Shown one piece after another: positions 58,540-59,537 of a stretch of DNA of 64,000 bases. A program made the position numbers and the translations under genes. The stretch is from Methylococcaceae bacterium (GTDB taxonomy: Bacteria; Pseudomonadota; Gammaproteobacteria; Methylococcales; Methylococcaceae). Below the pieces are notes generated by a model. That model searched no databases. It was given only the letters and a program-made list of their open reading frames with translations, and was not told the origin of the DNA. Where the stretch lies: NCBI GenBank assembly GCA_902812445.1, contig CADDZF010000001.1, forward strand, positions 22,838 through 86,837, given 5' to 3'. Every line of letters starts with the position of its first letter. Positions within the stretch are counted from its first letter, which is position 1.

Positions 58540-59226
58540 ATGAGCCAGCTTTTCGCCACCGCCATCGGCGGCTCCATCGGCGCGCTGATGCGCTTTTGGG
58601 TCGCGACGTCGATTTATGCCTGGCTCGGCCGCGGATTTCCGTACGGCACGTTGTTCGTCAACGTGTCGGGCTCATTTCTGATGGGCCTGCTGACCGAATT
58701 GATGCTGCAGCGGTTTGCCTTATCGGTCGAATACCGAGCCGCCATCCTGATCGGGTTTCTGGGCGCGTATACCACGTTTTCGACGTTTGCCATCGAAACG
58801 CTCTATCTGATCGAGGAGGGCAGCTTCTCGAAGGCAGGCCTGAACGTCGTTCTCAGCGTGATGCTGTGCCTTACGGCGGTGTGGAGCGGGCTGATCATCG
58901 GGAGGCAGCTTTTCGCCAACGACCTCTATCCCTGGCTTGGACACGGGTTTCCTTACGTCCGTCTGGCAAGCTGCTTGGTCGTCGCTTTTTTGCTGGGCGT
59001 CCTGGCCGAGACGGTTTTCCGCAGGATGCACCTAACACTGGAAAACCGCGCCATGATTTTAGTGACCCTGATGGGTATGATGACGGTCGCATCGACACTG
59101 CATCTGTTTACCGGTCTTGCCGAATCGAAGACGGATTTTCAGGGGCTGATCGGCATTTTCGCCATCACTGCGCTCGGGAGCGCGGCGGCGGTCTGGGCGG
59201 GATTACAGGCGGGGAGACAGCTATGA
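58540..59226 (+). CDS. crcB: Fused tandem CrcB/Fluc fluoride channel; second repeat degenerate and lacking most of TM1
   Basis: Repeat 1 has NVSGSFLMGLL and GFLGAYTTFSTF; repeat 2 (QLFANDLYPWLGHGFPY...) is homologous but lacks pore residues; CAGCTTTTCGCCA direct repeat at 58546 and 58906. Confidence 0.88.
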   Translation: MSQLFATAIGGSIGALMRFWVATSIYAWLGRGFPYGTLFVNVSGSFLMGLLTELMLQRFALSVEYRAAILIGFLGAYTTFSTFAIETLYLIEEGSFSKAGLNVVLSVMLCLTAVWSGLIIGRQLFANDLYPWLGHGFPYVRLASCLVVAFLLGVLAETVFRRMHLTLENRAMILVTLMGMMTVASTLHLFTGLAESKTDFQGLIGIFAITALGSAAAVWAGLQAGRQL

Positions 59227-59537
59227 CGCAGCAGCGGGTGACGATCGCACGGATTTATATTCGGGAAGGCGAGCACCTTCTCAACAGAGTCCTGAATTTT
59301 CTGCGGAAAGAGGAGAACGTCGCCGGTGTCACCGTGCTGCGGGGCATCGCAGGTTATAGCGACGCCGGAGAATGGCATACCGCCTCGCTGATCGATCTGG
59401 CGCTCGACTTGCCGCTGGTGATCGAATTCTTCGACGAGCCGGAACGCATCGAAATGGTCATCGACCGGCTGCAGCAAAGGCTGCCGGTCGCCCACGTGAT
59501 CAGCTGGCCGGCGACTCGGCATACGTCTAAACCGTAA
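59223..59537 (+). CDS. DUF190 family protein
   Basis: ARIYIREGEHLLNRVLNFLRKEENVAGVTVLRGIAGYSDAG...LPLVIEFFDEPERI; ATGA overlap with crcB. Confidence 0.9.
   Translation: MTQQRVTIARIYIREGEHLLNRVLNFLRKEENVAGVTVLRGIAGYSDAGEWHTASLIDLALDLPLVIEFFDEPERIEMVIDRLQQRLPVAHVISWPATRHTSKP

Follow-up and report, generated by a model that had tools for sequence, protein, structure and literature searches.

A seven-helix, fused Fluc-type protein of methanotrophs as a candidate single-chain antiparallel fluoride channel

The window analyzed here, a 64,000-nucleotide stretch of a Methylococcaceae genome, carries a crcB-type gene on its forward strand (58540..59226, +) whose coordinates, frame and translation were verified. 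Its product has 228 amino acids and seven predicted transmembrane (TM) helices, which exceeds the 120-130 amino acids and four TM helices that are the norm for Fluc/CrcB proteins, and it belongs to a set of 213 orthologous full-length sequences. The first domain, hereafter D1 (58540..58914, +), is a complete four-helix Fluc domain as judged by profile match, AlphaFold2 model, fold match and hydropathy. The Pfam family CRCB (PF02537) matches residues 6-118 with 96.8 bits (cut-off 32.9), NCBIfam also classes D1 as CrcB, and Fluc chains in the PDB match residues 3-126 only in a sequence search, with pore-residue numbering identical to that of Fluc-Ec2. The second domain, D2 (58945..59220, +), consists of the counterparts of TM2, TM3 and TM4 and has no TM1, as indicated by the AlphaFold2 model, the repeat alignment, hydropathy and purifying selection. 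On its own, D2 yields weak CrcB matches that stay below cut-off (NF010791, E 3.6e-10; Pfam CRCB, E 0.02, 15.6 bits). Between the two lies a junction (58915..58956, +) that has no TM helix and carries a remnant of the TM1-TM2 loop (NDLYPWLGHGFPY versus SIYAWLGRGFPY), with W132, G134 and P138 conserved.

The characteristic Fluc/CrcB motifs, namely GxxGxxTTFSTFxxE in TM3, PxGTxxxN in TM2 and the TM1 arginine, occur in D1 only, where they are invariant or nearly so across the 213 sequences. The NVSGSF segment of D1 (58660..58677, +) contains N41, the essential pore asparagine of Fluc-Ec2 under the same numbering, which is present in 213/213 sequences. The TTFSTF segment (58771..58788, +) forms the phenylalanine box with F80, S81 and F83. 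Its degenerate counterpart in D2 is TVASTL (59083..59100, +), which keeps the equivalent of Ser81 (S185) and has lost both phenylalanines.

The start codon of a DUF190 (PII-like) gene (59223..59537, +; PF02641, 67.7 bits) overlaps the crcB stop codon in the sequence ATGA, and the two genes probably form one operon. DUF190 genes adjoin crcB in 83 of 133 loci, beside single-copy and fused forms alike, and therefore the association is not tied to the fusion; the DUF190 protein could serve as a regulator of the channel. No fluoride riboswitch scored above cut-off in the window, in 20 relatives or in the window genome. This CrcB is the sole one in its genome, and thus there is no separate partner gene.

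Across the 213 orthologues, the mean identity between D1 and D2 is 28.8% when they are offset by exactly 104 codons and 6-14% at each neighboring offset, and a peak of this kind indicates an internal repeat rather than chance. The offset leaves 16 codons (120 - 104), those of TM1, missing from D2. The first-pass annotation of this DNA had described the two halves as internal repeats that differ in exactly this way, and had noted that NVSGSF and GFLGAYTTFSTF are kept by the first repeat and lost by the second. Both descriptions hold; in D2, CLVVAF and TLMGMMTVASTL stand in their place. Also present, as reported there, is an exact 13-mer, CAGCTTTTCGCCA, at 58546..58558 (+) and, 360 nucleotides further, at 58906..58918 (+). 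We considered whether this word is a relic of the duplication and rejected the idea. A shared word longer than 10 nucleotides at these two sites is private to the window genome (1/213), and exact repeats of at least 13 nucleotides occur somewhere in 22 of the 213 family genes, so the 13-mer is uninformative on origin. The QLFA/QLFA match at the junction is likewise largely coincidence, because residue 123 is T, G, R or Q in relatives and ...GRQL is how the ancestral single CrcB terminates.

More informative are the conserved junction residues W132, G134 and P138, which correspond to positions of WLGRGFP, the loop that connects TM1 with TM2. This remnant of loop 1 implies that D2 starts immediately after TM1. 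A loss of 16 codons, as originally proposed, is not required as an event, since a partial tandem duplication that began within loop 1 leads directly to the 4+3 form and is the simplest account of the fusion. A single unequal exchange that fused the end of a crcB copy with loop 1 of its neighbor would produce this arrangement in one step. Also possible is a 4+4 precursor from which TM1 was later lost; no protein of the 4+4 type was seen. In the reading that we favor the fusion arose once in the order, and a phylogeny of D1 is compatible with this: constraining the fused forms together gave a tree 27 log units better than that of the unconstrained search (p-AU 0.85). A first quick tree had split the fused forms, and was set aside because the tree that keeps them together has the higher likelihood.

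The 213 distinct full-length 4+3 sequences come from nearly every family of the Methylococcales-type order. Matches were found in 59 of 61 relatives, most across the full length, and order-wide in 286 of 311 genomes, nearly all full length among the matches listed. Carriers include Methylotetracoccus oryzae, Methylolobus aquaticus, Candidatus Methylumidiphilus alinenensis, Methylococcus sp. UBA6136 and Methylococcaceae bacteria. Among the matches listed for a sample of 369 genomes from the class, only sequences of the order reach beyond about residue 140, and no 4+3 form lies outside it; other gammaproteobacteria have ordinary CrcB proteins of 124-130 amino acids that end in ...GRQL. Within the order, a single-copy form occurs in two families (f6 and f7). 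Moreover, two relatives with complete genomes have reduced forms with an intact D1. The protein at locus L035 (133 amino acids) has lost D2 entirely, and that at L028 (160 amino acids; 1501-1985) retains roughly one helix of it. Both should be useful as natural controls.

Family-averaged hydropathy has seven maxima, at residues 13, 47, 76, 112, 151, 182 and 211. The junction is short (16-18 residues) and polar, and none of the 213 proteins has a TM-like window within it (residues 118-142). An AlphaFold2 model built from 15 sequences is of low to moderate confidence (pLDDT 72.9, pTM 0.51) and places D1 helices at residues 2-29, 35-58, 63-77 plus 80-92, and 96-125, and D2 helices at 136-163, 167-194 and 201-227. 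The pair 63-77 and 80-92 is the broken TM3 of Fluc proteins. A rerun with seven full-length rows only was poorer (pLDDT 59.6). Against crystal structures of Fluc, Foldseek aligned about one subunit of the model, with a TM-score to target of 0.69-0.78, and returned no match to a two-domain FEX structure. The proposed 4+3 helix count is thus borne out by hydropathy and by the model, and a search for an eight-helix arrangement, for a TM1 in the second repeat or for a linker helix found none of these among the 213 sequences. With four helices in D1 and TM1 missing from D2, the two copies are offset by an odd number of helices, and it follows from this parity that D2 should be inserted inverted relative to D1. 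The inverted second half suggested in the first-pass annotation is supported to this extent, as an inference from helix count. The bias in lysine and arginine charges is near zero (mean -0.7, sd 1.7), a value that does not discriminate between models of how the domains pair.

Selection has acted to preserve D2. Over 71 independent pairs, D1 has a median dN/dS of 0.048 and D2 one of 0.099; the highest D2 value is 0.27, and D2 is the faster-diverging domain in 62 of the 71. D2 is therefore under purifying selection with a constraint about twice as loose as that on D1, which argues that it is neither decay nor artefact.

The pore residues of the two domains have had very different fates. In D1, R18, T37, N41, F80 and F83 are present in 213/213 sequences and S81 in 99%. 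At the F83 position of D2, leucine is found in 191/213 (85% weighted). The F80 equivalent of D2 is leucine, alanine, glycine or serine in most members and phenylalanine in 13% (weighted), the residue corresponding to E86 is hydrophobic, and that corresponding to T37 has been lost. D2 does keep the equivalents of G75 (92%) and S81 (86%) as well as the asparagine equivalent to position 106 (residue 210, 86%). The S84 equivalent, residue 188, is now aromatic (tyrosine 62%, tryptophan 23%), and is histidine in the window protein. The N41 equivalent (N145) separates two clades, being present in 150/154 members of clade A and in 2/59 members of clade B, to which the window protein belongs; N210 is present in 152/154 of clade A. 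As a separate observation, Tyr188 is found in 153/154 clade A proteins, and the single-copy CrcB proteins sampled have serine at this position (35/35).

Each Fluc pore is formed by TM2, TM4 and one phenylalanine of one subunit, with the other phenylalanine supplied by the partner (PMC4969038, PMC5417652). In Fluc-Ec2, the mutations F80L, F80A, F80S, F83L, N41S and N41Q are each inactivating, F80M works, and the TM3 residue S84 points into the pore of the partner (PMC5636608). These mutant data, taken together with the phenylalanine losses in D2, imply that each pore of a D1:D2 pair lacks one essential phenylalanine: the D1-built pore is without the Phe80 equivalent of D2, and the D2-built pore is without Phe83. 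The earlier proposal that one of the two pores is vestigial therefore disagrees with the residue pattern, because in most members either pore of the cis pair misses one phenylalanine and D1 keeps both throughout. Judged by its residues, a dimer between the D1 domains of two chains (D1:D1') would have two perfect pores.

We favor, with about an even chance of being right, the view that the protein is a single-gene, seven-helix Fluc in which D1 and D2 pair in cis and in antiparallel fashion around a remodeled, D1-based pore. D1 and D2 would fold back on each other to form an antiparallel Fluc pair within one chain. Fluoride, the ion that the D1 sequence suggests is conducted, would then pass along the polar track of D1 TM2 and TM4 (T37, N41, F83, E86, N102 and S106, all from D1). 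TM3 of D2 would complete the path from the opposite side with Ser185 and the aromatic residue 188 (Tyr, Trp or His), which lies a single turn away from where Phe80 has been lost. The D2-based pore would be degraded, most of all in the clade of the window protein, where the N41 equivalent is gone. Both the intramolecular pairing and the identity of the conducting pore are our inferences from this pattern.

We prefer D2 as the partner of D1 because the retained equivalents of G75, S81 and position 106 are hard to explain outside a Fluc interface or pore. The clade A equivalent of N41 and Tyr188 are further retained features that we count for pairing in cis. Also, engineered tandem fusions of Fluc conducted only if antiparallel (PMC3755343). 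Several findings count against this reading. Its chief difficulty is that, judged by Ec2, both cis pores are one phenylalanine short, and that F80 of D1 is invariant (213/213) even in the clade without the asparagine, although it would serve only the D2-built pore; FEX proteins let positions that serve the degraded pore drift (PMC5417652). In addition, L035 and L028 have lost all or most of D2, so D1 evidently can do without it. The low pTM of the AlphaFold2 model (0.51) also weighs against it, and mean-field direct coupling analysis gave a set of D1-D2 couplings that was not significant (Fisher p 0.38). A pair near the top of that set, V114-G153, matches a published inter-subunit contact (T114-G49'); we discarded it because the set fell short of significance and the pair lacks phylogenetic independence. 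A correlation between S84A in D1 and loss of N145 in D2 was likewise discarded as explained by phylogeny.

The strongest competitor, less probable in our estimate yet a serious contender, places the function in D1:D1' double-barrelled dimers formed across oppositely inserted chains, with D2 lying outside as an accessory that stabilizes, spaces or regulates. The invariance of every D1 pore residue, both phenylalanines included, is what such a dimer would predict, and L028 and L035 retain exactly the domain it needs. The near-zero charge bias resembles that of dual-topology proteins, but it is equally expected from a fused antiparallel pair that is functional in either orientation. What this arrangement leaves unexplained is the set of buried polar D2 residues (N145, S185, N210 and G179) under purifying selection.

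An improbable variant of cis pairing would have two half-altered pores that both work with one phenylalanine each, instead of a live pore beside a dead one. The D2-built pore of clade A indeed has N145 and N210 together with F80 from D1, and the Fluc of Mycobacterium tuberculosis likewise departs from the usual coordination (PMC5636608). However, single phenylalanine losses kill Ec2 pores, and N145 is nearly absent from the clade of the window protein. We consider it very unlikely that D2 is a decaying, non-functional tail left by a degenerate duplication. Its faster divergence and its loss by a few relatives fit such a history, but a dN/dS of 0.10 that never rises beyond 0.27, a near-constant length across the order and residues that are invariant clade-wide do not. 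Least credible of all are the ideas that the protein is a parallel tandem of eight helices or that it reflects faulty assembly or gene calling. Nothing was seen in their favor, no eighth hydrophobic segment exists in the 213 proteins, and the same gene occurs in many complete genomes.

The protein can be compared with several known systems. Like the bacterial homodimers Fluc-Ec2 and Fluc-Bpe, it contains an entire Fluc domain in which all pore residues are present and numbered as in Ec2, but it carries a TM1-less second copy on the same chain, unlike the canonical protein of 120-130 amino acids and four TM helices (PMC3755343). Eukaryotic FEX proteins are fused pseudodimers with one functional and one vestigial pore (PMC5417652). 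They share with the methanotroph protein two Fluc domains per chain, a second domain inverted by helix count and an asymmetric decay of pore residues. They differ in being 4+1+4 with an inversion-linker helix, where the present form is 4+3 with a three-helix D2 and a short polar junction, and one FEX pore keeps both phenylalanines, whereas no D1:D2 pore has the full pair in most members. The paired heterodimeric Flucs La1 and La2 also comprise two diverged copies per genome, and drift of one pore has been considered possible for them (PMC5636608); they are separate complete genes, in contrast to the single reading frame with a truncated second copy found here. DUF606 and other inverted-repeat membrane proteins are single-chain, pseudosymmetric descendants of dual-topology dimers (PMC3962082). 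Their repeats are odd-helix units, however, and units with an even number of helices have been described as evolutionarily frustrated with respect to fusion; a 4+3 layout avoids this obstacle.

A 2024 review covers homodimers, heterodimers and FEX. In the open-access literature we found paired Flucs and eukaryotic fused Flucs and no description of a bacterial 4+3 Fluc, which appears to be a route, as yet undescribed, by which an even-helix membrane protein could become a single-chain, back-to-front pair. It is about as probable as its opposite, in our judgment, that an even-helix dual-topology channel became a single-chain inverted repeat through one partial duplication, with no linker, and was kept across the order as a working channel with a remodeled, asymmetric pore. 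The natural occurrence of 4+3 proteins in cultivable methanotrophs offers a simple second route to such fusions, and the order also contains single-copy and secondarily reduced relatives with which they can be compared. A further, sharp question is how a Fluc partner without either phenylalanine makes, or fails to make, a pore. Another candidate for a double CrcB, the 270-amino-acid 'CrcB' of NCBIfam NF002454 (seen via loci L280 and L281), was rejected because its second half matches separate proteins that, on our reading of their sequence, are DUF302-like; it is probably not a tandem Fluc.

Two further arrangements of 4+3 genes were seen within the order. In one family (f5), two diverged 4+3 crcB genes adjoin on opposite strands (L052, G057:C1:2479551-2481265; L058, G060:C58:1597-3290). 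Elsewhere, the clade A version of the 4+3 gene is broken (L250, G604:C29:209886-210332; L109, G466:C73) in genomes that also have an intact clade B copy, which suggests that one type has been replaced by the other.
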